Shown here one piece after another: positions 7,722 through 58,540 of a stretch of 64,000 nucleotides of DNA. The notes below the pieces were generated by a model that saw nothing but the letters and a program-made list of their open reading frames with translations, made no database searches and was not told the DNA's origin. The translations under genes and the position numbers were made by a program. Origin of the DNA: Candidatus Kuenenia stuttgartensis (lineage in GTDB: Bacteria; Pseudomonadota; Alphaproteobacteria; SMXS01); assembly GCA_943329845.2 (NCBI GenBank), contig CALQFM020000010.1:1-64000 (forward strand), written 5' to 3'. Numbering within the stretch: position 1 is the stretch's first letter; each line of letters starts with the position of its first letter.

Positions 7722-7799
7722 GGTGGCTGTAGCTCAGTTGGTTAGAGCGCGGGTTTGTGGTACCTGAGGTCGTGGGTTCGATTCCCATCAGCCACCCCA
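7722..7799 (+). tRNA. tRNA-His (anticodon GTG)
   Basis: Cloverleaf read by eye. The acceptor stem GGTGGCT/AGCCACC includes the extra 5' G (G-1) that is diagnostic for tRNA-His. The anticodon GTG is at 7757-7759 in a loop closed by CGGGT/ACCTG, the T arm contains GTTCGATTC, and CCA is encoded at 7797-7799. Confidence 0.95.
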
Positions 7800-7926
7800 G
7801 TTTCCCCTTGATTGATCCTCGATCGTCCCGCTTGCCGGGCCTTTGGCATCGCCGGCCTGCAGCACACTTGCCGCTGGATAAAAACTGTATGGCGGGCTAA
7901 TTTTTGGCCGGATACGGGGACAACCA

Positions 7927-9144
7927 ATGCCTGAACTCGACCAGATCGATCCACTGGATCCAGACGTCGTCGAATGTCCGTGGGACTACTACCGGTCGCT
8001 GCGCGACGCGGGCGGCGTCTACCGGGTGCCGGGCAGGGGGTTTTTCCTGGTCGGCCGCTACGAGACAGCGATGCGGGTGCTGAAGGACACGGCGACGTTT
8101 TCCTCGAAGGCCGGCGTCGCCGTGCCGCGCACACCGGATGGCAGCCACCGGCCGGCCGAGGGCGACGCCGTGCGCACGCTCCTGACCGCCGATCCGCCCG
8201 AGCACCGCAAATACCGCGACCTGGTGAACCGCGCGTTCTCGCAGAAACGGATGACGTCGTGGGAAGGCAACATCCGGGCGATCACCGACGACCTGATCGA
8301 CGGCTTCATCGGCGCCGGACGCTGCGAGCTGATCTACGACTTCGCCGTGCCGCTGCCGCTGATCGTGATCAGCGACGCGCTGGGATTGCCGCGCGAGCAT
8401 CTGCGCCAGTTCAAGCAATGGTCGGACGGCATCGCCCGCTTCGGCGGCCTGACCACGCCGGAGGACGAGGCGCGCATCGCCAAGGAGTTGGGCGCGTTCG
8501 GCGCCTATGTCGCCGCCATGATCGAGGAACGGCGGAACAATCTCGGCGACGATTTCATCTCCGACCTGATCCGGTCCCGCTTCGACGGCGATCGGCCGTT
8601 GACCCTGCCGGAGCTCGTCAGCATCACCATGCAGTTCCTCGTCGCCGGCAACGAGACGACCACCAATACCATCGCCTCGGGCATGGTGCTGCTGCTGCGG
8701 CATCCGGAGCAGATGGCCGCGGCCAGCGCGGATTTCTCGCTCATTCCCAACCTGGTGGAGGAGGTTCTCCGCGTCGAGGCGCCGGTGCAGGCGCATTTCC
8801 GCGTCGCGTCGCGCGACACGGTGCTCGACGGCGTCGCCATCCCCGAGGGCGCTGGTGTCGGCGTGGTGTTCGGCTGCTGCAACCGGGACGAGGCGACGTT
8901 CCCCGACCCGGAGACCTTCGACATCACGCGCGGGAACGCCGGGCGGCACCTGGCCTTCAGCCAGGGCATCCACTATTGCCCGGGCGCGCCGCTGGCGCGG
9001 ATCGAGACCGTGATCGCGTTCGAGCAGCTTCTTGGGCGGCTCAGGAACATCCGCCTGGACGAGGCGAACAGCGATCTGCGCCATGTACCCAGCTTCACCC
9101 ATCGCGGCCTGCGCAAGGTCGCGCTGACGTTCGACCCCGCCTGA
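7927..9144 (+). CDS. Cytochrome P450, soluble bacterial class
   Basis: Haem-thiolate monooxygenase, 405 residues, no membrane anchor. Seen: the I-helix oxygen-activation motif AGNETTTN near residue 240, an EEVLR (ExxR) K-helix motif, and the haem-binding FSQGIHYCPGAPLAR with the axial Cys near residue 350. It therefore looks catalytically intact. No ferredoxin or ferredoxin reductase gene is adjacent, so electron partners must be elsewhere. The substrate cannot be inferred. It lies after tRNA-His and 49 bases before the NAD(P)H-hydrate repair gene on the same strand; whether the two are co-transcribed is unknown. Confidence 0.92.
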   Translation: MPELDQIDPLDPDVVECPWDYYRSLRDAGGVYRVPGRGFFLVGRYETAMRVLKDTATFSSKAGVAVPRTPDGSHRPAEGDAVRTLLTADPPEHRKYRDLVNRAFSQKRMTSWEGNIRAITDDLIDGFIGAGRCELIYDFAVPLPLIVISDALGLPREHLRQFKQWSDGIARFGGLTTPEDEARIAKELGAFGAYVAAMIEERRNNLGDDFISDLIRSRFDGDRPLTLPELVSITMQFLVAGNETTTNTIASGMVLLLRHPEQMAAASADFSLIPNLVEEVLRVEAPVQAHFRVASRDTVLDGVAIPEGAGVGVVFGCCNRDEATFPDPETFDITRGNAGRHLAFSQGIHYCPGAPLARIETVIAFEQLLGRLRNIRLDEANSDLRHVPSFTHRGLRKVALTFDPA

Positions 9145-9193
9145 GCGGTCCAATCCCTTTGGTGTCGGACCGGATGCGGCTTAAAGTGGCCCC

Positions 9194-10654
9194 ATGACGG
9201 GGCTCGAACTGCTCACCACCGAGGAAATGTACCGCGCCGATGCGCTCGCCATCGCGCGCGGCACGCCGGGCGTCACCCTGATGGAGAACGCGGGCAGGGC
9301 ATGCGCGCGCGTCATCGCGGAAAGCCATGACCGCGTGCCGGTGGCGGTGCTGTGCGGCCCCGGCAACAATGGCGGCGACGGCTTTGTCATCGCCCGGCTG
9401 CTGCAGCGGCAGGGCTGGACCGTCCGGCTCGGCCTGCTGGGCGACCCGTCGCGGCTGAAGGGCGACGCGGCCAGCATGGCGGCGCGCTGGACCGGCCCGG
9501 TGGAACCGCTGTCGGTTGACCTTCTTGTGGGCGCCGGCCTGATCGTCGACGCGCTGGTCGGCGCCGGGCTCGACCGGCCGATCAACGGCGTTGCGGCCGA
9601 GGTGATCGAGGCAGTCAATGGCGCAGGGGTGCCGGTCGTCGCCGTCGACGTGCCGAGCGGTGTCGAAGGCTCGACGGGCAGGGTGCTCGGCCCGGCTGTC
9701 AAGGCTTCCCGCAGCATCACCTTTTTCCGCAAGAAACCCGCCCATCTCCTTGTGCCATCAAAGTTTCTCTGTGGCATGGTCGATACACTGGACATCGGTA
9801 TTCCCGGCGAAGTGCTGGACGAGATCGGCGCGCACTGCTGGGAGAACGGCCCGGCGCTGTGGCGATCCGTGTTTCCGTTTCCGGCGGAGGGCGGCCACAA
9901 ATATGGGCGCGGCCACGCCATCGTCGTCTCCGGTCCGCTGGCCCTTGGCGGCGCGGCCCGGCTCGGCGCCAGGGCGGCACTGCGGGTTGGCGCGGGACTG
10001 GTGACGGTCGCCTGTCCGCCGGACGCGCTGGTGGCGCACGCCTCCCAGCTCAACGCGGTGATGACCGCCGTCTTCACCGATTTCGCCGACATCCTGGCCG
10101 ACAAACGCCGCAACGCCGTGCTGGTCGGGCCGGGCAATGGCGTTGGCGAGGGGACCCGCGACGCGGCGCTGAAGGCGCTGCGGGCCGGCCGGTCCTGCGT
10201 CATCGACGCCGACGCCATCACAAGCTTCCAGGGCGCGGCCGCCGATCTGTTCGGCGTCATCGCCGGACCCTGCGTGCTGACGCCCCATGACGGCGAGTTC
10301 GCTCGCCTGTTCCCGGATCTCGCCGAGGGCAGCAAGCTGATGCGTACGCGGGCGGCCGCCGCGCGCGCCGGCGCGGTCGTGCTGTTCAAGGGGCCCGACA
10401 CGGTGATCGCCGCGCCGGACGGCCGTGCCGTCATCAACGGCAATGCGCCGCCGACGCTGGCGACAGCCGGATCGGGCGACGTGCTCGCCGGCCTGATCGT
10501 CGGCCTGCTGGCCCAGTCGATGCCGGCGTTCGAGGCCGCCTGCGCCGGCGCCTGGCTGCACGGCCGGGCCGCGGCCCTGTTCGGGCCCGGCCTGATCGCC
10601 GAGGACATCAGCGAGACGCTGCCCGCGGCGCTGCGCGAACTGGCGGCGGGCTGA
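9194..10654 (+). CDS. nnr: Bifunctional NAD(P)H-hydrate repair enzyme (epimerase + dehydratase)
   Basis: Repairs hydrated NADH and NADPH. The N-terminal half (about residues 1-210) is the YjeF_N epimerase, with the signature GPGNNGGDGFV. The C-terminal half (about 225-486) is the ADP-dependent dehydratase of the ribokinase-like fold, with LTPHDGEFARLFPD and the nucleotide-binding TAGSGDVLAGLIVG. At 486 residues it is the normal fused length. The ATG at 9194 follows the P450 closely. Its stop overlaps the ATG of the next gene, so the two are probably translationally coupled. In many alphaproteobacteria this gene lies next to glnB; here an aminotransferase, a tRNA and a P450 intervene. Confidence 0.93.
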   Translation: MTGLELLTTEEMYRADALAIARGTPGVTLMENAGRACARVIAESHDRVPVAVLCGPGNNGGDGFVIARLLQRQGWTVRLGLLGDPSRLKGDAASMAARWTGPVEPLSVDLLVGAGLIVDALVGAGLDRPINGVAAEVIEAVNGAGVPVVAVDVPSGVEGSTGRVLGPAVKASRSITFFRKKPAHLLVPSKFLCGMVDTLDIGIPGEVLDEIGAHCWENGPALWRSVFPFPAEGGHKYGRGHAIVVSGPLALGGAARLGARAALRVGAGLVTVACPPDALVAHASQLNAVMTAVFTDFADILADKRRNAVLVGPGNGVGEGTRDAALKALRAGRSCVIDADAITSFQGAAADLFGVIAGPCVLTPHDGEFARLFPDLAEGSKLMRTRAAAARAGAVVLFKGPDTVIAAPDGRAVINGNAPPTLATAGSGDVLAGLIVGLLAQSMPAFEAACAGAWLHGRAAALFGPGLIAEDISETLPAALRELAAG

Positions 10655-11391
10655 TGGTCACGCTGGCGTTCGGCCTGTTCTATATCGGCCTGTTCGCGAT
10701 GGCGGTGGCGGCGGTGGTGTCGGGCGTGTTCTACGGTCTCGCCCGGCTGCTGACGCGGAACGTGACCGATGGCCGCCGGACGTTCCTGCGGAGCGCCGTG
10801 CTGCTGCCGTTCGTGTCCGCGGCCTGGATCGGGGGCGTGACCCTCGCACAGCTTTCCATGAGCCTGTCTGACGACGGCCGCGACGCCCTGCGCCTCGATC
10901 TGCCCAACGGCTACGTCTTCACCGTGGAAAAAGGCGCGGACAAGGGCAATATCGCCGGCCCGGGCGGCAAGCCTCTCGTCGTCGATCTGCGACGGCTCCA
11001 GGTGGCGGGCGCCCACGTCTTCGGCACCCGGTTTCTCGCCGACGAGATGGCGCGCCTGCGCGACTGGTACCCCGAGGGGCTGTCCGGCACCCATATGATC
11101 CTCGATACCGGGACGGGCAGGGAGGTCTGGCTCGAGGAACGGGCGTTCGAGGCCGAGGCGCGTGCGCTGGGCGTCACGCCGGCGTTGCGCCCGATCGCCG
11201 AGATGCGCGCGGAAACTGCGTCGGGTCTGCCCAACGGGCTCGCGCTGGCCATGGCGCTCGGCGGGCCTCTCGTCGCGCTGGTGCTGCTTGTCCGCCGCGG
11301 CATCCGCCTTCGGCGGGGATCCCCGTCGCTTGCGGCCTCGACCGGCGGGACGCCGGAATCGCCGCCGCGACGGTCACTCCAAGATCGCTAG
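10654..11391 (+). CDS. Predicted membrane protein of unknown function
   Basis: Not recognised. 245 residues with two N-terminal hydrophobic helices (LAFGLFYIGLFAMAVAAVV near the start, then LLPFVSAAWIGGVTLAQL), a soluble middle of about 120 residues, and a third helix near the C-terminus (LALAMALGGPLVALVLLV) followed by Arg-rich sequence. The soluble part probably faces the periplasm if the N-terminus is inside. The ATG overlaps the stop of nnr as TGATG, so it is expressed with the repair enzyme. A tRNA-Leu follows on the same strand. Confidence 0.7.
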   Translation: MVTLAFGLFYIGLFAMAVAAVVSGVFYGLARLLTRNVTDGRRTFLRSAVLLPFVSAAWIGGVTLAQLSMSLSDDGRDALRLDLPNGYVFTVEKGADKGNIAGPGGKPLVVDLRRLQVAGAHVFGTRFLADEMARLRDWYPEGLSGTHMILDTGTGREVWLEERAFEAEARALGVTPALRPIAEMRAETASGLPNGLALAMALGGPLVALVLLVRRGIRLRRGSPSLAASTGGTPESPPRRSLQDR

Positions 11392-11466
11392 TGCATTACA
11401 AAAAAGGTGTGCTATACGTCCGCCCCCTGAGCGGGGCGGGATCGCCGTGGATGCGCCATGGTTTTG

Positions 11467-11551
11467 GCGGGCGTGGCGGAATTGGTAGACGCGCCGGATT
11501 TAGGTTCCGGTGAGGAAACTCGTGGGGGTTCGAGTCCCTTCGCCCGCACCA
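11467..11551 (+). tRNA. tRNA-Leu (anticodon TAG)
   Basis: Acceptor stem GCGGGCG/CGCCCGC, type II tRNA with a long variable arm, anticodon TAG in the loop TTTAGGT closed by CCGGA/TCCGG, discriminator A and encoded CCA (11549-11551). Confidence 0.95.
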
Positions 11552-11601
11552 TCGCGACCCCCCGCCTATAGTATTATGCACAACAGAATTCGGACGTTCT
11601 C

Positions 11602-12945
11602 ATGCAAGTCACCGAAACCAGCGCCGAAGGCCTCAAGCGGCAGTACACGATCACCGTCGAGGCGGACGTCATCGACAACAAGCTCGACGAGAAGCTGAAG
11701 CAGCTTGCCGGCCGTATCCGCCTGCCGGGCTTCCGGCCGGGCAAGGTGCCGGTGGGCCACCTGCGCAAGCTTCACGGCGACGCGCTGATGGGCGAAGTGC
11801 TCGAGGAGACGGTGAACGACACCACCCGCGAGGCGCTCGAGAAGAACGAGCTGCGTCCGGCGATGCGGCCGAACATCGAGATCACCTCGTTCGAGCGCGG
11901 CAGCGACCTGGAATACAAGCTTTCGGTCGAGGTGCTGCCCGTGATCGTCCCCGGCGACCTGAGCAAGGTGAAGCTGGAGAAGCAGACCGCGCCGGTCGGC
12001 GAGAGCGACATCGAGGACGCGCTCAAGCGCATCGCCGAGGGGCAGAAGGCCTACAAGGCCGCCGCCAAGACCTACAAGGCGAAGAAGGATGACGCCGTCG
12101 TCATCGATTTCGTCGGCAAGCGCGACGGCGAGCCCTTCGACGGCGGCACCGCCGAGGATTACGAGCTGGTGCTGGGATCGAACTCGCTGATCCCGGGCTT
12201 CGAGGACCAGCTGATCGGCGCCAAGACCAACGAGAAGCGCGACGTCAACGTCACCTTCCCGGCCGACTACGGCTCGGAAGACCTGGCCGGCAAGGACGCG
12301 GTCTTCGAGGTTACCGTCAAGGAAGTGAAGAAGCCGGTCGACGCCGCCATCGACGACGAGCTGGCGAAGAAGCTCGGCCTGGAGAGCCTGGAACAGCTGC
12401 GCGAGCGGCTGAAGGAGCAGGTGGCCGCCGACTACACCCGCGTCTCGCGCATGAAGCTGAAGCGGGCCATGCTCGACCAGCTGGCCGACATGCACGACTT
12501 CCCGGTGCCGGAAGGCATGGTCGAGATGGAGTTCAACCAGATCTGGCAGGACTTCGAGACCAGCCTGAAGCAGGACGGCAAGACCCTCGAGACGGCCGAA
12601 AAGCCGGAAGCGGAACTGCGCACGGAATACCGCGACATCGCGGTGCGCCGCGTCCGCCTGGGCCTGCTGCTGTCCAATATCGGCGACACCAACGAGATCA
12701 CCGTGACCGCCGAGGAACTGAACCGCGCGATCATGATGGAGGCGCAGCGCTTCCCCGGCCAGGAGCGCCGCGTGTTCGAGTTCTACCAGAAAAATCCGGA
12801 CGCCATGCAGCAGGTCCGCGCACCGATTTTCGAGGAGAAGGTCATGGACTTTATTCTCGATAAGGCCGAAGTTACGGAGAAGGAAGTCGACCGGGAAACG
12901 CTGCTGAGCGACCCCGACGAAGACGCCGCCGCCGACTCCAAGTAA
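11602..12945 (+). CDS. tig: Trigger factor, ribosome-associated chaperone
   Basis: Peptidyl-prolyl isomerase and chaperone that binds ribosomal protein L23 at the exit tunnel and receives nascent chains. 447 residues. The ribosome-binding signature GFRPGKVP is at residues 43-50. The FKBP-type domain (DAVVIDFVGKRDGEPFDGG, then GSNSLIPGFEDQLIGA) lies near 165-245, and the long helical C-terminal arms follow. It heads the quality-control series tig-clpP-clpX-lon, a conserved bacterial order. A short hairpin lies past its stop. Confidence 0.96.
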   Translation: MQVTETSAEGLKRQYTITVEADVIDNKLDEKLKQLAGRIRLPGFRPGKVPVGHLRKLHGDALMGEVLEETVNDTTREALEKNELRPAMRPNIEITSFERGSDLEYKLSVEVLPVIVPGDLSKVKLEKQTAPVGESDIEDALKRIAEGQKAYKAAAKTYKAKKDDAVVIDFVGKRDGEPFDGGTAEDYELVLGSNSLIPGFEDQLIGAKTNEKRDVNVTFPADYGSEDLAGKDAVFEVTVKEVKKPVDAAIDDELAKKLGLESLEQLRERLKEQVAADYTRVSRMKLKRAMLDQLADMHDFPVPEGMVEMEFNQIWQDFETSLKQDGKTLETAEKPEAELRTEYRDIAVRRVRLGLLLSNIGDTNEITVTAEELNRAIMMEAQRFPGQERRVFEFYQKNPDAMQQVRAPIFEEKVMDFILDKAEVTEKEVDRETLLSDPDEDAAADSK

Positions 12946-12981
12946 CACCGGGTCGCCGAGCGCGTCGGTCCGGAAACGGGG

Positions 12982-13008
12982 GGCAGGACGCCCTTAATCT
13001 GTCCTGCC
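12982..13008 (+). terminator. Hairpin after tig, weak terminator or attenuator
   Basis: Perfect 8-bp stem GGCAGGAC/GTCCTGCC (12982-12989 with 13001-13008), 11-base loop, followed by TCTTCAAAATTC rather than a clean T run. It could terminate tig transcripts partially or be processed. Confidence 0.4.
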
Positions 13009-13030
13009 TCTTCAAAATTCAATCGGAAGG

Positions 13031-13050
13031 CCCATCTGATGGCAGATGGG
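13031..13050 (+). promoter_or_regulatory. Perfect hairpin at the clpP translation start region
   Basis: CCCATCTG-ATGG-CAGATGGG forms an 8-bp perfect stem with a 4-base loop, and the loop contains an in-frame ATG (13039). If clpP starts at 13075 the hairpin lies in its leader; if it starts at 13039 the start codon is in the loop. Confidence 0.6.
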
Positions 13051-13074
13051 CTTCACAGGCTACAAGGCGGCGAA

Positions 13075-13704
13075 ATGAGGGATCCTCTGGAAGTTTACGG
13101 CGCGCTCGTTCCCATGGTGGTCGAGCAGAGCAATCGCGGCGAACGTGCGTACGACATCTATTCGCGCATGCTCAAGGAGCGCATCATTTTCCTGGTGGGT
13201 CCGATCGACGACCACGTCTCGAGCCTGATCTGCGCCCAGCTGCTGTTCCTCGAGGCCGAGAATCCCAGCAAGGAAATCGCGCTCTACGTCAATTCGCCGG
13301 GCGGCATCGTGACCTCGGGTCTCGCGATCTACGACACCATGCAGTACATCAAGGCGCCGGTGTCGACGGTGTGCATCGGCCAGGCCGCGTCCATGGGCTC
13401 GCTGCTCCTGCAGGCGGGCGAGCCGGGCCGGCGCTTCGCCACCCCGAACGCCCGCGTCATGCTGCATCAGCCCTCGGGCGGCGCGCAGGGCCAGGCCACG
13501 GACATCGAAATCCACGCCCGCGAGATCCTGGCGATCCGCGAGCGTCTCAACCAGATCTACGTCAAGCATACCGGCCAGGACATCGAGACCATCCGCCGCG
13601 CGCTGGAACGGGACAACTTCATGACAGCGGCCGATGCCAAGACATTCGGCCTGATCGACGAGGTTTTCGAAAAGCGTCCCGACCCGCAGAGCAAGGCCGC
13701 CTGA
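13075..13704 (+). CDS. clpP: ATP-dependent Clp protease proteolytic subunit
   Basis: Serine protease that forms a barrel degrading substrates unfolded by ClpX or ClpA. From the ATG at 13075 the protein is 209 residues and begins [18 protein letters not shown], like other alphaproteobacterial ClpPs. Catalytic Ser106 lies in GQAASMGS and His131 in MLHQPSGG. The frame also has an ATG at 13039 that would add 12 residues ([12 protein letters not shown]). I prefer 13075 because it matches the family start and has AAGGCGG five bases upstream, but GGAAGG also precedes 13039. clpX follows after about 115 bases. Confidence 0.95.
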
Positions 13705-13819
13705 GGCGGCGTGGGCACTGGACGCTTGTCCATCACGCGGTGGTGAACCGCAACATTGGCATTGATTGCCCGGGCTCGCCCCGGATAGCATGCACTGAAA
13801 CGACGGTACGACTCGGGTA

Positions 13820-15091
<1,272 letters not shown>

Positions 15092-15197: not shown

Positions 15198-17624
<2,427 letters not shown>

Positions 17625-17655
17625 CCGGACGCGGTTCACCGTTCCGAATTGGACG

Positions 17656-17702
17656 AAGCCCCCGAAAAGCGTAGATTTTCTGCGCATTTCGGGGGCTTTT
17701 CC
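17656..17702 (+). terminator. Rho-independent terminator of lon
   Basis: 12-bp perfect stem AAGCCCCCGAAA/TTTCGGGGGCTT (17656-17667 with 17687-17698), extended inside by GCG/CGC, ending in CTTTTCC. The hupB -35 box begins two bases after this feature. Confidence 0.9.
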
Positions 17703-17703
17703 T

Positions 17704-17732
17704 TTGACGCTCTCGGACGCTCCCTCTAAACT
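17704..17732 (+). promoter_or_regulatory. Putative hupB promoter
   Basis: TTGACG (17704-17709), a 17-base spacer and TAAACT (17727-17732). Predicted start near 17739 gives a leader of about 54 nt to the GTG at 17793. Confidence 0.65.
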
Positions 17733-17792
17733 GCGCGTTCTCTCGCAAAGAGAGACCTGTTGGATAAATCAGCTACAAACAAGGGGGTTGTC

Positions 17793-18065
17793 GTGAACAA
17801 AAAAGACCTGATCGCGGCCGTTGCAACCAGTGCAGGCCTCTCCATGACGGATGCGGCAAGTGCAGTCGATGCCGTTCTCGACGGTATCTCTGGTGCGCTG
17901 GCGAAGGGCGATGAAGTCCGTCTCGTCGGCTTCGGCACCTTCAGCGTCGCAAAACGCGCCGCCACCACCGGCCGCAATCCGCGCACCGGCGACACCATCA
18001 AGATTCCGGCGTCCACCCAGCCCAAGTTCAAGGCTGGCAAGGCGCTGAAGGACGCCGTCAACTAA
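17793..18065 (+). CDS. hup: DNA-binding protein HU
   Basis: Small basic nucleoid protein that bends DNA. From the GTG at 17793 it has 90 residues and begins (M)NKKDLIAAVA, the exact family pattern. The DNA-binding arm contains FGTFSVAKRAATTGRNPRTG, and the C-terminus KFKAGKALKDAVN is canonical. I chose the GTG because AAGGGGG lies five bases upstream and the length then equals the family norm; the frame is open for 11 further codons upstream. It directly follows lon, as in many proteobacteria, but has its own promoter and terminator. Confidence 0.96.
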   Translation: MNKKDLIAAVATSAGLSMTDAASAVDAVLDGISGALAKGDEVRLVGFGTFSVAKRAATTGRNPRTGDTIKIPASTQPKFKAGKALKDAVN

Positions 18066-18093
18066 AGGCGTTTCCTGACGTTTCGAGTTTGAT

Positions 18094-18131
18094 CCGGCCG
18101 CTCTTTGCAGGGCGGTCGGTTTCATTTATTG
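18094..18131 (+). terminator. Rho-independent terminator of hup
   Basis: 8-bp stem CCGGCCGC/GCGGTCGG (18094-18101 with 18112-18119, one G-T pair), 10-base loop, followed by TTTTCATTTATT. Confidence 0.75.
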
Positions 18132-18161
18132 CGTGTAGAACACATTGGTTTTAGGCGCTTC

Positions 18162-18237
18162 GGGCGATTAGCTCAGTTGGTAGAGCATCTCGTTTACACC
18201 GAGAGGGTCGGCGGTTCGAGCCCGTCATCGCCCACCA
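18162..18237 (+). tRNA. tRNA-Val (anticodon TAC)
   Basis: Acceptor stem GGGCGAT/ATCGCCC, anticodon TAC in the loop TTTACAC closed by TCTCG/CGAGA, T loop TTCGAGC, discriminator A and encoded CCA. Confidence 0.95.
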
Positions 18238-18238
18238 G

Positions 18239-18301
18239 CCTTCGCGCTGCGCGCTTCGGCTTGGCAAGCCAGCGCACAGAATTCGGGGCGCAGTGCGAAG
18301 G
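18239..18301. repeat. Long stem-loop just after tRNA-Val
   Basis: CCTTCGCGCTGCGC (18239-18252) pairs with GCGCAGTGCGAAGG (18288-18301) with a single G-T pair. An inner hairpin GGCTT/AAGCC lies at 18258-18270. It may end the tRNA transcript or be a small palindromic repeat. Confidence 0.6.
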
Positions 18302-18391
18302 CTGTGACGCCGTAGCCCGGAGGGCGTAGGCGGACCGTACTAGGATAGAGCGCAGATTCCTGGCTTCGCATCAGGCGTTGAAGGTCTTTTC

Positions 18392-18631
18392 ATGCACTAC
18401 GTTTACATACTTCGCAGCGCGTTCGAGCCCGATCGGCACTACACCGGCATCACCACCGATTTGAGGGCTCGTCTTGCCCGGCACAACGCCGGCGAGGTCG
18501 CGCATACATCCAAGTATCGGCCCTGGACTTTGATGACCTACGTTGCCTTTTCCGAAGAGGCCAAGGCCTTCGCGTTCGAGAAATATCTCAAGTCGGCATC
18601 GGGCCGCGCTTTCGCCAAAAAGCGGTTCTGA
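18392..18631 (+). CDS. GIY-YIG nuclease-domain protein
   Basis: A 79-residue single-domain protein of the UvrC/Slx1 GIY-YIG nuclease superfamily. It begins MHYVYILRS and has YTGITTDLRARLARHNAG, the typical VYIL...YTGIT core with the Arg after it, and ends in FEKYLKSASGRAFAKKRF, which supplies the conserved Glu. These small stand-alone proteins (YhbQ/YPO2792 group) are widespread, and their cellular role is poorly defined. It lies alone between tRNA-Val and tRNA-Asp. Full length for the group, intact. Confidence 0.88.
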   Translation: MHYVYILRSAFEPDRHYTGITTDLRARLARHNAGEVAHTSKYRPWTLMTYVAFSEEAKAFAFEKYLKSASGRAFAKKRF

Positions 18632-18692
18632 ACGTGTCTCTGTCGAAGGGCATGGAACACGAGAAACTTCCCCCATTTGAGGCGATTATCCG

Positions 18693-18734: not shown

Positions 18735-18811
18735 GGGGGTGTAGCTCAGTTGGTTAGAGCGTCGGCCTGTCACGCCGAAGGTCGCGGGTTCGAGTCCCGT
18801 CACTCTCGCCA
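18735..18811 (+). tRNA. tRNA-Asp (anticodon GTC), copy 1
   Basis: Acceptor GGGGGTG pairs with CACTCTC using two G-T pairs, anticodon GTC in loop CTGTCAC, T loop TTCGAGT, discriminator G and encoded CCA (18809-18811). Confidence 0.95.
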
Positions 18812-18893: not shown

Positions 18894-18970
18894 GGGGGTG
18901 TAGCTCAGTTGGTTAGAGCGTCGGCCTGTCACGCCGAAGGTCGCGGGTTCGAGTCCCGTCACTCTCGCCA
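18894..18970 (+). tRNA. tRNA-Asp (anticodon GTC), copy 2
   Basis: Identical over all 77 bases to the copy at 18735-18811 and separated from it by 82 bases. The upstream CTTGC is also shared. No clear promoter of its own, so it is probably co-transcribed with copy 1. Confidence 0.95.
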
Positions 18971-50880: not shown

Positions 50881-51981
50881 ATGGATATTCCGTTCGTAGG
50901 CACTTCGGTCGTTGCGTTCGTCGCGGTCTTTTCCGCGCTGGTGTTCTTTCACGAGCTTGGCCATTTTTGGGTCGCCCGCCGCTTCGGGATGCGCGTCGAC
51001 GTGTTCTCGATCGGCTTCGGGCCGACGCTGTGGAGCCGCAAGGACAGGCACGGCATCGAATGGCGGCTGTCCGCGGTCCCGCTGGGCGGCTTCGTGAAAT
51101 TCTTCGGCGACGCTTCCGGGGCCAGCAACCAGGCGCCCGAACTGGAGCAGATGAGCGAGGCGGACCGCCGTGACTGCTTCCACTTCCGGCCGCTGCACCA
51201 GCGCGCGGCGGTGGTCGCCGCCGGGCCCATCGCCAATTTCCTGCTCGCCTTCGTGATCTTCGCGGTCATGTTCATGACCGTCGGGCAATCCTATTCCGAT
51301 CCTGTCGTGGACGCAGTGCTGCCCGGTAAGCCGGCGGCAGCCGCGGGTTTCAAGCCCAACGACCGGATCCTGAAGGTGAACGGCGACGACATCGCCACGT
51401 TCGAGGAGTTCCGTACCCGTGTCGCCATGAGCGCGGGCAGGGAAATGTCGTTCACGGTCAAACGCGCCGACTCCATCGTGGTGCTGAAGGCGACTCCGGT
51501 GGCCGAAACCGACGGCTCGATGACGGTCGGCCGTCTCGGCCTGGCAAGCGAGCGCAAGGCGCTGGTCAAGCGCGGCCCGATGGACGCCATGTGGCACGCG
51601 GTGCTGGAGATTCGCGATACGTCGACCATGATTTTTCGTGTCGCTGGCGAGATGATCGTTGGCCAGCGGTCGGTCAAGGATCTGGGCGGCCCGCTGAAGA
51701 TCGCCGAGATATCGGGCGAGGTGGCGCAGGTCAGCCTGCTCGGGCTGGTGATGATGACCGCGGCGCTGTCGGTTAATCTCGGCCTGGTCAACCTGTTGCC
51801 GATTCCCGTGCTGGACGGCGGCCATCTTCTCTATTATGCCTTTGAAGCCGTTCGCGGGCGTCCCTTGGCCGAGAAAATCCAGGAGTACGGCTTCCGTATG
51901 GGAATGGCGCTTGTGCTGCTGTTGATGGTCGTTGTCACGTGGAATGACCTCATCGGTATCGTATCCAGACTACAATCATAA
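50881..51981 (+). CDS. rseP: RIP metalloprotease RseP
   Basis: Site-2 intramembrane zinc protease that cleaves anti-sigma factors and signal peptides. 366 residues with HELGH at residues 24-28 inside the first helix, a single visible PDZ domain (PGKPAAAAGFKPNDRILKVNGDDI), and the third ligand in PIPVLDGGHLLYYAFE. It directly precedes bamA, as usual. Confidence 0.95.
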   Translation: MDIPFVGTSVVAFVAVFSALVFFHELGHFWVARRFGMRVDVFSIGFGPTLWSRKDRHGIEWRLSAVPLGGFVKFFGDASGASNQAPELEQMSEADRRDCFHFRPLHQRAAVVAAGPIANFLLAFVIFAVMFMTVGQSYSDPVVDAVLPGKPAAAAGFKPNDRILKVNGDDIATFEEFRTRVAMSAGREMSFTVKRADSIVVLKATPVAETDGSMTVGRLGLASERKALVKRGPMDAMWHAVLEIRDTSTMIFRVAGEMIVGQRSVKDLGGPLKIAEISGEVAQVSLLGLVMMTAALSVNLGLVNLLPIPVLDGGHLLYYAFEAVRGRPLAEKIQEYGFRMGMALVLLLMVVVTWNDLIGIVSRLQS

Positions 51982-52009
51982 GAGCCTAACAGGATGGTCG
52001 AGTAACGAG

Positions 52010-54331
52010 ATGCGGCAGGTCTCCTTGAAGTCGTGGCTGTTCGCCGCAGCTCTGATTCTTATCCCCGCCCTGGCGCAGCCCGCCGTCGCGCAGACCGGCG
52101 GCCTGGTCTCGGCCATCAGGGTCGAGGGCAATCAGCGCATCGAGCCGGATACGGTGCGTTCCTATCTTCTGGTCGCCCCTGGCGACCGCTATCAGCCCGA
52201 GGTCGTCGATCAGTCGCTGAAACGGCTGTTCGGCACCGGCCTGTTCGCCGACGTGAAGATCACCCTTCAGGGCAGCACGCTGCTGGTGTCGGTGGTCGAA
52301 AACCCCATCGTCAACCGCATCGCCTTCGAGGGAAACAAGAAGCTCGACGACGACAAGCTGCGCCAGGAGCTGCAGATCAAGCCGCGCACGGTATTCACCC
52401 GCGCCAAGGTGCAGGCCGACCTGCAGCGCCTGATCGAACTCTACCGGCGCTCCGGCCGCTTCGCCGCGACCGTCGAGCCCAAGATCATCGAGCTGCCGCA
52501 GAACCGTGTGAACCTAGTCTACGAGATCAGCGAAGGCGAGAAGACCACCGTCCGCCGCATCAACATCATCGGCAACGAGAAGTTTTCCGACGGCGACCTG
52601 CGCGGCGAGGTGGCGACCAAGGAAGCCCGCTGGTGGCGCTTCCTGACCTCGAACGACACCTACGATCCCGACCGCCTGCTGTATGACCGCGAACTGCTGC
52701 GCCAGTACTATCTGCAGCGCGGCTTCGCCGACTTCCGGACCATCTCGGCCGTGGCCGAGCTGGGCCGCGACCGCGAGGATTTCTACATCACCATCACCCT
52801 GGAAGAGGGCCCGATCTACACGGTCGGCAAGGTGGCGGTGGAATCCGAGATCGAGGACCTGGACCCGAGCCAGCTGACGCGGCTGGTTTTGACCGAGGAG
52901 GGCGAGACCTACAACGCCCAGGAGATCGAGAAGACCGTCGAGGCGATCACCGAGGCCGCCGGCAAGATCGGCTACGCCTTCGTCAACGTCCGGCCCAAGA
53001 TCACCCGCGACAAGGAAAAGAAGATCATCTCCATCACCTACCGGCTGCTGGACGCGCCGCGGGTGTATGTGGAGCGCATCGACATCGTCGGCAACACGCG
53101 CACCCTGGACAAGGTGATTCGCCGCGAGTTCCGCCTGGTCGAGGGCGACGCCTTCAATACCGCCAAGCTCCGCCGCACCAAGACCCGCGTGAAGGGTCTC
53201 GGCTACTTCGAGGAGAAGGGCGTGGAAATCGACCAGGCGCAGGGCAGTTCGCCCGACCGCGTGGTACTAACCGCGACGGTGCAGGAGCAGTCGACCGGCG
53301 AGCTGTCGATCGGCGCGGGCGTGTCTTCCTCCGAAAGCCTGATCGGCGAAGTCTCGATCCGAGAGCGCAACCTGCTCGGCAAGGGTCAGGATTTGCGCCT
53401 CTCGCTGGCGGCGTCGGGCCGGCGGCAGCAGATCGACCTGGGCTTCACCGAGCCCTACTTCCTCGACCGTCCGCTGGCGGCGGGCTTCGACCTGTTCCAC
53501 CGCAAGGTCGACTACAAGGAAAGCTCGTTCTCGCAGGGATCGAGCGGCGTCAACCTGCGCGCGGTATTCCCGATCACGGAATACCTGTCCATGGGCGTCC
53601 GCTACCAGTTCCGCTACGACACGGTGACCGACCGCAACGACCTGGTGCAGTCGATCTATATCGATGAAGGCAACTTCACCACGTCCTCCGTCGGCATGAC
53701 GCTGGCGTATGACGTGCGTGACGACCGCATCAAGCCGACACGCGGCTTCAATATCGTTTTCTCGCAGGACGTGGCAGGCCTGGGCGGCAACACGCGCTAT
53801 CTGCGCAGCCGCCTGAACTACGACTGGTACTACCCGCTGCTGTTCATCGGCGATGACTGGGTGGTCAACCTGTCGCTGGAGGCGGGCCACATCTTCGGCC
53901 TTGGCCAGGATATCCGCATCAACGAGCGCTATTTCCTCGGCGGCACACGCCTTCGCGGCTTCGAACAGGCCGGTGTCGGCGCCCGTTTGAGGGACAGCGA
54001 GGACGCCCTCGGCGGAAATACCTACTTCGCCGGTTCGGTGGAAGTGTTTATTCCCTTGGGCGCGGTCGAAGAGTTTGGTATTACAGCCTCCGCTTTCGTC
54101 GACTTCGGCACCCTGTATGGCGTCGATGGCGTAGTGAACGGTCAGCTCTGCAACGATCAAGGCACCTGCGAGGTCGTGTTGGGCTCCGACAGCATCCGGA
54201 TGTCGGCCGGTATCGGCTTCTCCTGGAAATCGCCTTTCGGACCCATTCGTTTCGACTTCGCCAAGGCCATCCGCAAAGAAAGCTTCGACCAAACCCAGTT
54301 CTTCCAATTCAACGTCGGGACCAGATTCTAA
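52010..54331 (+). CDS. bamA: Outer membrane protein assembly factor BamA
   Basis: Core of the machine that inserts beta-barrel proteins in the outer membrane. 773 residues from the ATG at 52010 (MRQVSLKSWLFAAALIL), with a signal peptide ending at AQPAVAQ. Five POTRA domains (about residues 30-420) precede the beta-barrel. The barrel lid-loop motif is visible as GGTRLRGFEQAGVG, and the terminal Phe of VGTRF fits a barrel protein. The stop overlaps the next start by one base. Its presence shows the cell has an outer membrane. Confidence 0.96.
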   Translation: MRQVSLKSWLFAAALILIPALAQPAVAQTGGLVSAIRVEGNQRIEPDTVRSYLLVAPGDRYQPEVVDQSLKRLFGTGLFADVKITLQGSTLLVSVVENPIVNRIAFEGNKKLDDDKLRQELQIKPRTVFTRAKVQADLQRLIELYRRSGRFAATVEPKIIELPQNRVNLVYEISEGEKTTVRRINIIGNEKFSDGDLRGEVATKEARWWRFLTSNDTYDPDRLLYDRELLRQYYLQRGFADFRTISAVAELGRDREDFYITITLEEGPIYTVGKVAVESEIEDLDPSQLTRLVLTEEGETYNAQEIEKTVEAITEAAGKIGYAFVNVRPKITRDKEKKIISITYRLLDAPRVYVERIDIVGNTRTLDKVIRREFRLVEGDAFNTAKLRRTKTRVKGLGYFEEKGVEIDQAQGSSPDRVVLTATVQEQSTGELSIGAGVSSSESLIGEVSIRERNLLGKGQDLRLSLAASGRRQQIDLGFTEPYFLDRPLAAGFDLFHRKVDYKESSFSQGSSGVNLRAVFPITEYLSMGVRYQFRYDTVTDRNDLVQSIYIDEGNFTTSSVGMTLAYDVRDDRIKPTRGFNIVFSQDVAGLGGNTRYLRSRLNYDWYYPLLFIGDDWVVNLSLEAGHIFGLGQDIRINERYFLGGTRLRGFEQAGVGARLRDSEDALGGNTYFAGSVEVFIPLGAVEEFGITASAFVDFGTLYGVDGVVNGQLCNDQGTCEVVLGSDSIRMSAGIGFSWKSPFGPIRFDFAKAIRKESFDQTQFFQFNVGTRF

Positions 54332-54915
54332 TGAAACACGGGAATATCGCACGCACCTGGCTGGCGGCTGCCGCTGCCCTGTTCGTGGTTGGTGCAGCCT
54401 CCTATGCCTCCGCCCAGGATATCGCCGGGGCGAAGATCATCATCGTCGACCTGCGCGAGGTCCAGAAGTCGTCCAAGGCGGGACAGGATTTCGCCCGTCA
54501 GGTCGAAACCCTGCGTGCCGACCTGGAGGCAGACAAGCAGAAGCTGGAAAAGCAGGCAGCCGACGCCGAACAGGAGTTGAGCCGCCAGAAGGCCATCCTG
54601 AGCGACGCCGCCTTCGAAGAGAAGCGCAAGGCCGCCGCCCAGCAGTTCGCCGACAGCCGCAACAACCTGCAGGACAAGGCCAACCGGGTTCAGGTCGCCC
54701 TCGGCAATGCCGACCGTGACCTGCAGTCCGCGCTCAACCCGGTCTATCAGGCGCTGCTGAGCAAGTACGGCGCGAACATGATCCTGGACCGCAGCGTCAT
54801 CGTGATGACCGGCCAGGTGACGGACGTGACCCGCGAGGTCATCTCGCAGCTCGACCAGAAGATGCCGAGCATCAAGCTCAACATGCCGGCCGCCGGTTCC
54901 ACGCCCCGCCAGTAA
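54331..54915 (+). CDS. skp: Periplasmic chaperone Skp/OmpH
   Basis: Escorts unfolded outer-membrane proteins through the periplasm. 194 residues: signal peptide (ARTWLAAAAALFVVGAASYASAQ), then IIIVDLREVQKSSKAG and a long helical coiled-coil rich in Lys, Gln and Ala (about residues 50-125), and a C-terminal part. Coupled to bamA. In most relatives lpxD follows; here a terminator follows. Confidence 0.92.
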   Translation: MKHGNIARTWLAAAAALFVVGAASYASAQDIAGAKIIIVDLREVQKSSKAGQDFARQVETLRADLEADKQKLEKQAADAEQELSRQKAILSDAAFEEKRKAAAQQFADSRNNLQDKANRVQVALGNADRDLQSALNPVYQALLSKYGANMILDRSVIVMTGQVTDVTREVISQLDQKMPSIKLNMPAAGSTPRQ

Positions 54916-54941
54916 CCAGTCGGGCGTTTCGAGACTACCAG

Positions 54942-54971
54942 GTCCCCCGCGAGAGCGATCTCGCGGGGGAC
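54942..54971 (+). terminator. Strong terminator after skp
   Basis: 13-bp perfect stem GTCCCCCGCGAGA/TCTCGCGGGGGAC (54942-54954 with 54959-54971) with loop GCGA, followed by TTTCGCGTT. It separates skp from fabZ. Confidence 0.8.
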
Positions 54972-55054
54972 TTTCGCGTTGTGAGCTGCTGGCGCTTTGG
55001 CGAAGTTCTGGTATTAAGGGCCGTTAACGACAGAACCTGGAAAGGGCTCGCGGG

Positions 55055-55528
55055 ATGAACGCGCTGATCGGGGAAAACATCGAGGCGACGCTGGATCTGG
55101 AACAGATCAAGCGCCTGATCCCCCATCGTTATCCCATGCTGCTGGTCGACCGGCTCCACATCATCGAGCGGGGCGAGCGGGCCGTGGGCATCAAGAACGT
55201 CACCGCCAACGAACCGTTCTTCCAGGGCCATTTCCCGGAAAAGGCCGTGATGCCGGGTGTGCTGATCATCGAGGCGTTGGCCCAGACCGCCGCCGTACTC
55301 GCCCTCGACGTGCTGCTGACCGAGGAAGAGGACGCGCTCGTCTACCTGACCTCGGTCGAGAACGCCAAGTTCCGGCAGCAGGTGGTGCCGGGCGATACGC
55401 TGTACCTGCATGTCCAGAAGGAAAAGGCCCGGTCCTATCTGTGGCGCCTCGCCGTCCAGGCGAAGGTGAACGGTAAGACGGTAACCGAAGCCGTCCTCTC
55501 GGCGGTCATCGAGAAGCGCCCGCGTTAG
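55055..55528 (+). CDS. fabZ: 3-hydroxyacyl-[acyl-carrier-protein] dehydratase FabZ
   Basis: Dehydrates 3-hydroxyacyl-ACP in fatty acid elongation. 157 residues. Active-site His and Glu lie in [22 protein letters not shown], and the start [20 protein letters not shown] is canonical. Normally embedded between lpxD and lpxA; here it has neither and stands alone between the terminators at 54942 and 55631. A-rich GGAAAGGG precedes the ATG. It looks intact. Confidence 0.96.
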
Positions 55529-55630
55529 CGTCACCATAGGAAGAACTGCAGCTCATCTCTCTATCCGTGTCGTTGGGCGTATCGGCAGGGAATGCCGGGC
55601 ATGATCACGGCCGGGGTGCTGACCACATGA

Positions 55631-55660
55631 AAAAGGCGGCGTCCGCGGACGCCGCCTTTT
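55631..55660. terminator. Bidirectional terminator between fabZ and gltA
   Basis: A 30-base perfect palindrome (15-bp arms, AAAAGGCGGCGTCCG and its complement) serving gltA on the minus strand, 20 bases past its stop, and possibly fabZ on the plus strand. A and T runs flank the stem. Confidence 0.9.
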
Positions 55661-55679
55661 CCGTAAGCGGACCGAAAGC

Positions 55680-56978
55680 CTATTTTCGCTTGTCCATCGC
55701 CACGTAGGAGCGCTGTACCGGACCGGTGTAGAGCTGGCGAGGGCGGCCGATCTTCTGCATCGGATCCTCGATCATCTCGTTCCACTGGGCAACCCAGCCG
55801 ACCGTGCGGGCAACGGCGAACAGCACGGTGAACATGCTGGTCGGGAAGCCCATGGCGCGCAGGATGATGCCCGAATAGAAGTCGACGTTCGGATACAGCT
55901 TCTTCTCGACGAAATAGTCGTCCTCGAGCGCGATGCGCTCCAGCTCGACGGCCAGTTCCAGCAACGGGTCGTCCTGCTTGCCCAGGGCGCTGAGCACCTC
56001 GTGGCAGGTCTCCTGCATGATCTTGGCGCGCGGGTCGTAGTTCTTGTAGACCCGGTGGCCGAAGCCCATCAGGCGGAAGTTGTCGTCCTTGTTCTTGGCC
56101 TTCTTGACATACTCGGCGACGCGGTCCTTGGAGCCGATCTCCTGCAGCATGGTCAGTACCGCCTCGTTGGCGCCGCCATGGGCGGGACCCCACAGGCAGG
56201 CGATGCCGGCGGCAATGCAGGCGAACGGATTGGCGCCCGACGAGCCGGCGAGGCGCACGGTCGACGTTGAGGCGTTCTGCTCGTGGTCCGCGTGCAGCGT
56301 GAAGATGCGGTCCATGGCGCGCGACATGATCGGATCGATCGTGTAGGGCTCGGCCGGCACCGCGAACATCATGTTCAGGAAGTTCTCGGCATAGCCCAGA
56401 TCGTTGCGCGGGTATACGAAGGGCTGGCCGGTCGAATATTTGTACGCCATCGCCGCGATGGTCGGCATCTTGGCGATCAGCCGGTGCGTTGCCACCATGC
56501 GCTGGTGCGGGTCGTTGATGTCGGTGCTGTCATGGTAGAACGCCGACAGGGCGCCGACGACGCCGCACATGATCGCCATCGGGTGGGCGTCCCTGCGGAA
56601 CCCGCGGAAGAACTCCCGCAGCTGCTCATGCACCATGGTGTGGTAAGTGATGCCGCGCACGAACTTCTCGCGCTCCGGCTTGTTCGGCAGCTCGCCGTGC
56701 AGCAGCAGATAGCAGACTTCCTCGAAATCCGAGGAGCGGGCCAGTTCCTCGATGGGGTAGCCGCGATACAGCAGCACGCCCGCGTCGCCATCGATATAGG
56801 TGATCTTGGACTCGCAGCTCGCCGTCGAGGTGAAGCCCGGGTCATAGGTGAACATGTCCGTCGCCCCGTAGAGCTTGCGGATGTCGATCACCTTGGGGCC
56901 GACCGAGCCTTCCAAGACAGGCAGGTCCACGGACTTGCTGCCGGTGCCGAGTTTGGCAATCTTTTCGCTTTCACCCAT
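55680..56978 (-). CDS. gltA: Citrate synthase
   Basis: Condenses acetyl-CoA and oxaloacetate at the entry of the TCA cycle. 432 residues, type II hexameric length. Seen: [17 protein letters not shown], the catalytic His regions [14 protein letters not shown] and [13 protein letters not shown], and [14 protein letters not shown]. Transcribed towards fabZ. It lies 41 bases after gltX on the same strand; in relatives this is the gene that follows lpxB. Confidence 0.97.
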
Positions 56979-57019: not shown

Positions 57020-58540
57020 TCATGTGTTTATCTGGTCGGCGATCCGCGCCAGGCTTTCGTCACGGCCCAGCACGGCAAGAACATCGAATATGCCGGGTGA
57101 CGTGGTCCGCCCGACGAGCGCCGCGCGCAGCGGCTGGGCAATCTTGCCGAACTTGATGCCTTCGACCTCGCTCATGTTTCGTAGGGTGAGATCGAGGGAT
57201 TCGGCTGTCCAATCCGAGACGGACTTCAGCCCGCTATAGGCGTGTCCCAGAATCTCTCTGGCTTCTGGCGTATCTAATAGGACTTTGGCTTTCTCGTCCA
57301 CCGCAAGCGGCCGCTCCTCGGTGAGGAAAAGCGCGCCCTCGGCCAGCTCCAGCAGGGTCTTGGCGCGTTCCTTGAGTCCAGGCATGGCGAGCAGGGTACG
57401 CTGGGCGGCGTCCGCGTCGGGCGTCCGGCCGAGCTTTCCGGCGACGATGGGCAGCACCAGGCTGACCAGACGCTGGTCGTCCGCCTGGCGCAGATAATGC
57501 CCGTTCAGGTTCTCCAGCTTGGCGAAATCGAATCGCGATGCCGAGCGGCCGACACCGTCTAGGTCGAACCACTCGATGGCCTGTTCGGTGGGAATGATCT
57601 CGTCGTCGCCGTGGCCCCAGCCGAGCCGCAGCAGGTAGTTGCGCAGCGCCTCGGGCAGGTATCCCATGTCGCGGTAGGCCTCGACGCCCAGCGCGCCGTG
57701 GCGCTTGGACAGCTTGGCGCCGTCCGGGCCGTGGATCAGCGGGATGTGGGCGAAGCGCGGCACGTCCCAGCCCATCAGGTCATAGATGTGGAACTGGCGG
57801 AACGCGTTGGTCAGGTGGTCGTCGCCTCGGATGACATGGGTGATGCCCATGTCATGGTCGTCGACCACCACCGACAGCATGTAGGTCGGCGAGCCGTCGG
57901 AGCGCAGCAGCACCATGTCGTCGAGCTGGCTGTTGGCGATCGTCACCGTGCCCTGCACAAGGTCGTCGATCACCGTCTCGCCGTCCTGCGGCGCCCGCAG
58001 GCGGATGACCGGCGCCACGTCCGGCGGCGCGTCGGAGGCGTCGCGGTCGCGCCAGCGGCCGTCATAGCGGATCGGCTTGCCCTCGGCCTTGGCGCGCTCG
58101 CGCATCTCGGCAAGTTCCTCGACCGAGGCATAGCACCTGTAGGCGTTGCCGGCGGCCAGCAGGGCGTGCGCGACCTCGGCATGCCGCGCGGCGCGTCGTG
58201 ACTGGAAAACGATCTCGCCGTCATGGTCGAGACCGAGCCAGTCCAGCCCCGCGATAATGGCGTCGATGGCGGCCTGCGTCGAACGCTCCTTGTCCGTGTC
58301 CTCGATCCTGAGCAGGAACTGTCCGCCATGGTGGCGGGAGAACAGCCAGTTGAACAACGCGGTGCGCGCGCCGCCGATATGCAAAAATCCCGTCGGAGAA
58401 GGCGCGAAGCGGGTTACAACTGGGGCAGGAGATTGGGGCACGGGAGAGACGGAACTCCTGTTCGGCGAGGGGGCGGGGCGGGGCGCTTCCGCACCGCAAC
58501 ATGCTTCTAGCATACATAGCTCAAAAGGAAAAACTATCAC
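57020..58540 (-). CDS. gltX: Glutamate--tRNA ligase
   Basis: Class I tRNA synthetase charging tRNA-Glu (possibly also tRNA-Gln). Class I motif [22 protein letters not shown] and the KLSKRHG signature are present, and the C-terminal anticodon domain is complete. The open frame gives 506 residues from GTG 58540 with about 40 residues before [11 protein letters not shown], a Pro/Ser-rich stretch that the family usually lacks. The real start may be the ATG at 58513 or a GTG nearer the core. Two consecutive minus-strand genes (gltX, gltA) follow divergently from comEC. Confidence 0.93.

Follow-up and report, generated by a model that had tools for sequence, protein, structure and literature searches.

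Probable replacement of lipid A by an exported sphingolipid in a family of Alphaproteobacteria that has lost the lpx genes around fabZ

Gram-negative bacteria usually rely on lipid A as their outer-membrane anchor; it is their classic essential lipid, with Lpt as its dedicated exporter. As far as the studies of Kawahara (1991) and Kawasaki (1994) are summarized in PMC10964400 and PMC11324152, Sphingomonas is devoid of lipid A and produces glycosphingolipids. Sphingolipid genes are scattered in Sphingomonadales (PMC11324152), and those of Caulobacter crescentus lie in a cluster (CC_1168 to CC_1152) comprising spt-acpR-cerR-aasR, a ceramide kinase gene, a flippase gene, cerS and the genes for LptC2, LptF2 and LptG2 (PMC11324152). 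The last three proteins were proposed in 2024 as the Caulobacter sphingolipid exporters by authors who described sphingolipid transport as not understood (PMC11324152). Ceramide phosphoglycerate formation in the same species needs both CC_1160, the ceramide kinase, and CC_1161 (PMC11324152). According to the summaries of Zik (2022) in PMC10331486 and PMC10964400, Caulobacter lives without lipid A only when an anionic sphingolipid is available.

The locus described here lies in a 64-kb window (i.e., the whole stretch of DNA that was analyzed, on contig C10 of genome G000). The reading frame of bamA, for an outer-membrane protein assembly factor, extends from 51932 to 54331 on the plus strand (TIGR03303, 775.7 bits, cut-off 297), its true start possibly lying further in, and is followed on the same strand by skp/ompH for a periplasmic chaperone (54331–54915; Pfam PF03938 OmpH, E 2.5e-12) and by an intact fabZ for a 157-aa 3-hydroxyacyl-ACP dehydratase (55055–55528; NF000582, 180 bits and TIGR01750, 176 bits, both above cut-off). 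Convergent with fabZ on the minus strand are gltA for citrate synthase (55680–56978; TIGR01798, 783 bits) and, flanking it, gltX for glutamate-tRNA ligase (57020–58540; TIGR00464, 504 bits). The identities assigned to bamA, skp, fabZ and gltA in the original prediction were thus borne out by NCBIfam and Pfam models, all four genes being intact, and its distances of 139 bases from skp to fabZ (54916–55054, the position of lpxD in relatives) and 151 bases from fabZ to gltA (55529–55679, the position of lpxA, lpxI and lpxB) are exact from the gene coordinates. Each gap folds into a strong hairpin, with a perfect stem of 14 bp at 54941–54972 in the first and a stem of 13 bp at 55631–55660 in the second, and therefore has little room for an lpx remnant; a simple terminator scan did not call these hairpins, the T-tail rule being unmet. 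In tblastn searches with genuine LpxA, LpxB, LpxC, LpxD and KdtA proteins from relatives, no match was found anywhere in the 64-kb window, the contig of which is unbroken across the locus. Degraded lpx remnants in the gaps were rejected on the strength of these searches and of the hairpins, in line with the earlier claim that neither frames nor remnants of lpxD, lpxA and lpxB are visible at this locus. Elsewhere in the window, tandem tRNA-Asp (gtc) genes of equal Rfam score (18735–18811 and 18894–18970) lie about 80 bases apart.

The order that had been taken as usual for Alphaproteobacteria, with lpxD before and lpxA-lpxB after fabZ, was evident from the FabZ loci of named genomes among the matches listed. 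Thus, bamA-(skp)-lpxD-fabZ-lpxA-lpxB-gltA, with gltA again on the minus strand, was found in Caenispirillum salinarum AK4 (L012), Parvibaculum (L021 and L024), Phenylobacterium (L049) and several Rhodospirillales MAGs, and Rhizobium and others agree. The order of the window, bamA-(skp)-fabZ-gltA without lpx genes, was found on three contigs of unclassified MAGs (L006, JAOTXT010000027.1; L008, JAGREE010000005.1; L015, JAJRQU010000199.1), with no match to Skp at L006. Among the matches listed, the best for FabZ were unclassified alphaproteobacterial MAGs, and FabZ and BamA of the window were nearest to Rhodospirillales-like genomes. At three other loci, from Defluviicoccus sp. SCELSE-4-Def (L007), Rhodospirillales CSMAG_2909 (L011) and Hyphomicrobiales NC_groundwater_588 (L033), bamA was upstream of fabZ with lpxD and lpxA undetected nearby; these are possibly further lipid-A-free or rearranged lineages.

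Absence of lipid A genes extended to the whole genome. LpxA, LpxB, LpxC and KdtA were searched genome-wide (LpxA, LpxB and KdtA in 12 genomes) and LpxD in the window. Genome G000 (3.68 Mb, 107 contigs, rated 100% complete) gave no match to LpxC, LpxB or KdtA and none to LpxA over the cut-off of 231 bits, the best being hexapeptide-family background of 34 bits; LpxC-positive genomes scored strongly in the same searches. The same result was obtained for G039, G167 and G264, which are two congeners and a member of a second genus of the window's family, the congener G039 being a 100% complete assembly of two contigs. Without LpxA, LpxB and LpxC, no known route to lipid A is left. Absence from G000, two congeners and a further family member indicates that the loss is real and old rather than a relocation. 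Intact lpxA and lpxB elsewhere in the genome, which on the original prediction would have meant relocation, were not found, nor were lpxC and kdtA/waaA, and the proposed selective removal of lipid A synthesis around a retained fabZ is supported by this genome-wide absence.

The sphingolipid synthesis genes that had been suggested as worth seeking form a full cluster of 13 kb on contig C33, with aasR-cerR-acpR-spt, a ceramide kinase-like gene, a flippase gene and a CerS candidate enclosing an LptF/LptG pair (coordinates that follow are those of L178, i.e., G000:C33:12001–32000). Encoded on the minus strand are AasR (16870–18651), CerR (15933–16865), AcpR (15609–15854) and serine palmitoyltransferase (SPT; gene ending at 14411), the last of which is firmly identified from its sequence (NF047599, 625 bits, cut-off 500; PDB 2x8u, E 2e-150). 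The plus strand encodes a protein of 318 aa that matched no Pfam family (13458–14414), a lipid kinase bearing the GGDG motif of bacterial ceramide kinase (12493–13461) and a DUF2141 protein (11724–12413), and the minus strand again LptF (10412–11686) and LptG (9312–10415), about 3 kb from spt, a polysaccharide-flippase-like protein (7733–9304) and the CerS candidate (5710 to about 6930), which was recognized by a weak GNAT match and its conserved neighborhood. The 318-aa protein, the gene of which accompanies the ceramide kinase-like gene in most families examined and which contains a FYGSCLRTG...DD stretch of nucleotidyltransferase-like appearance, may be the counterpart of CC_1161. Because a kinase of the type needed for ceramide phosphoglycerate in Caulobacter, together with this conserved neighbor, adjoins spt, the substitute lipid is probably an anionic phosphosphingolipid. 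The earlier idea of another glycolipid is refined in this respect, the ceramide kinase-like gene making an anionic phosphosphingolipid likelier than a plain glycolipid. The gene neighborhood, including sphingolipid-linked LptF and LptG, is that of the Caulobacter crescentus cluster and, unlike the scattered genes of Sphingomonadales, is compact, with the ceramide kinase-like and flippase genes beside lptF-lptG. In G264, a second and divergent sphingolipid-type LptF/LptG pair with its own CerS-like gene was seen (L183, G264:C7:102000–119000) in addition to the main pair on C25.

The Lpt bridge itself is complete in G000, as the search for lpt genes that had been proposed revealed. LptD is encoded on C18, rnd-lptC-lptA-lptB-rpoN lie on C23 and the single LptF-LptG pair is that on C33; LptC and LptB score above curated cut-offs, and LptA falls below the NCBIfam cut-off (59.7 vs 71.7 bits) but above that of Pfam. 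Since BamA, Skp, LptD, LptA and LptC are all present, an outer membrane is still to be expected, as originally claimed. Retention of LptD and LptA without lipid A would be hard to explain except by export of sphingolipid through Lpt.

Two kinds of LptF/G were distinguished by a tree of joined LptF and LptG sequences (54 rows) and by separate trees of each protein. LPS-type pairs grouped together in a single clade, with support of 100/100 when both proteins were joined and with agreement from the single trees, and the pair of G000 fell outside this clade, with pairs linked to sphingolipid genes. The same was true of all 22 pairs from LpxC-lacking genomes, which were interleaved with sphingolipid-linked pairs of LpxC-positive genomes. 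Ceramide genes were found at none of the LPS-type LptF/G loci and at nearly all others. Like LptF2 and LptG2, therefore, the proteins of the window's genome belong to a clade apart from the LPS type and are encoded with ceramide genes. Whereas Caulobacter still has lipid A and a further LptF/G of the LPS type, this genome has the sphingolipid-type pair only. Among 40 SPT-bearing genomes, most that carried LpxC had two LptF/G pairs, one near LptD in several and the other near SPT, CerS or kinase, yet they had a single LptD (its gene split over contigs in one), so that LptD is shared between the two; such sharing would explain why LptD is retained after lipid A is lost. LpxC-lacking members of this set that had LptF/G carried one main pair, usually near SPT, and every LptF/G-bearing LpxC-lacking genome tested had the sphingolipid type only (an extra single gene of G244 lies outside the trees). 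The window's family (f1) and family f13 join in the LptF/G tree and separate in the RpoB tree, so horizontal transfer of the sphingolipid cluster between lineages is possible.

The association of lipid A loss with sphingolipid synthesis was assessed in an even sample of 289 genomes of the class, with LpxC as proxy for lipid A. The SPT query was patterned on the Sphingomonas enzyme and behaved as Sphingomonas SPT in that the SPT of the window's genome scored 465 bits against the query and 465 bits against PDB 2jg2. LpxC was absent from 46 of the 289 genomes, and high-scoring SPT was present in 24 of these 46 as opposed to 16 of the 243 with LpxC (p 1.8e-12, kinship ignored), the exceptions being for the most part genomes that are small or incomplete. 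When the comparison was confined to genomes of 2.9 Mb or more with completeness of at least 95% and contamination of no more than 5%, the corresponding numbers were 19 of 19 and 9 of 87 (p 1.5e-14, kinship ignored). On an RpoB tree of genomes picked for comparison rather than at random, the LpxC-lacking SPT-positive genomes required eight changes, six of them forced by well-supported branches. The kinship-controlled association was suggestive and below significance, with six usable independent pairs, a mean of 4.7 in agreement and a median p of 0.06. On balance, it is fairly probable that Alphaproteobacteria dispensed with lipid A on at least six independent occasions, and only where a sphingolipid-dedicated LptF/LptG already shared the single LptB-C-A-D bridge with LPS, so that the second exporter served as a pre-adaptation and the 'LPS' machine afterwards served sphingolipid alone.

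Taken with the gene content, these results make it very probable that the window's family is wholly without lipid A and has an outer-membrane surface of sphingolipid, exported by Lpt with sphingolipid-type LptF/G. Ceramide would be made at the inner membrane by AasR, AcpR, Spt, CerR and the CerS candidate and then probably phosphorylated by the CpgB-like ceramide kinase. The ABC transporter formed by LptB2 with sphingolipid-type LptF and LptG would extract the ceramide derivative, which would be pushed along LptC-LptA to LptD and placed in the outer leaflet. Gain of the sphingolipid exporter would have preceded the loss of lipid A and of the LptF/G that served it, and fabZ would have been kept because fatty-acid synthesis needs FabZ, the flanking lpx genes being dropped cleanly.

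Less likely by a wide margin is that sphingolipid replaced lipid A but travels by another route, with Lpt carrying something else or persisting as a leftover. In keeping with such a route are G066 (L272, G066:C1:1500001–1520000) and G280 (L273, G280:C1:260001–280000), both large and near-complete genomes from family f66, which contain ceramide genes although LpxC, LptD, LptA and LptF/G were not found in either, so that sphingolipids can exist without Lpt. The head-group genes (i.e., the ceramide kinase-like gene and that of its 318-aa neighbor) are also missing from both, however, and their sphingolipid may therefore differ; moreover, Lpt components are intact across deep divergences between families, and LptF/G is embedded in the ceramide cluster of LpxC-lacking and LpxC-positive genomes alike. 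LptD, LptA and LptF/G are present in the sister genome G186, and the f66 pair represents a lineage that looks diderm and has no Lpt bridge at all. It is very improbable that enzymes of separate ancestry produce a chemically different, unrecognized lipid A analogue for export by Lpt, with sphingolipid as a minor component: the three weak hexapeptide acyltransferase-like matches in G000 that might suggest one resemble the ordinary hexapeptide background present in all 14 control genomes, Gram-positives and archaea included, and LptF/G of G000 belongs to the sphingolipid-linked rather than the LPS clade. Relocation of lpx genes, which do move in some lineages, or their loss in gaps of an assembly of 107 contigs was rejected as scarcely credible, since four separate genes are missing from four assemblies, with LpxC, LpxB and KdtA matchless and LpxA at no more than 34 bits in G000 and the same result in G039, G167 and G264.

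The predicted replacement of lipid A by an Lpt-exported sphingolipid would place the window's family beside, rather than within, the sphingomonads. Like Sphingomonas and other Sphingomonadaceae, it lacks lpx genes, has a single-chain SPT and keeps LptD and LptF/G, a pattern shared by family f13 of the sample, which is probably Sphingomonadaceae as judged from an SPT identity of 68–79%. Lipid A genes are thus absent, and ceramide genes and outer-membrane machinery present, as in Sphingomonas. It differs from f13 in family and order within the sample, with an SPT identity of 54%, and membership of the organism in Sphingomonadaceae was rejected since f1 and f13 are related at the level of the class and are separated, with modest support, in the RpoB tree. 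The lipid-A-free state is not unique, being the known condition of Sphingomonas and having arisen several times within Alphaproteobacteria. What is new is a lipid-A-free lineage outside the sphingomonads, together with the repeated rule, as no report was found in the open-licence literature of repeated lipid A loss always accompanied by retention of the sphingolipid-type pair. As in the Caulobacter lipid-A-null suppressor, so far as the summaries cited above describe it, lipid A appears dispensable given an anionic sphingolipid, although that suppressor is a laboratory mutant under special conditions whereas the state of the window's family, as read from its genes, is natural and fixed in the whole family. 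In one natural lineage, and apparently in several, lipid A has disappeared, the Lpt bridge is kept whole and its membrane subunits are swapped for a sphingolipid-linked paralogue, which makes testable both the route of bacterial sphingolipids to the outer membrane and the prerequisites for Gram-negative life without lipid A.
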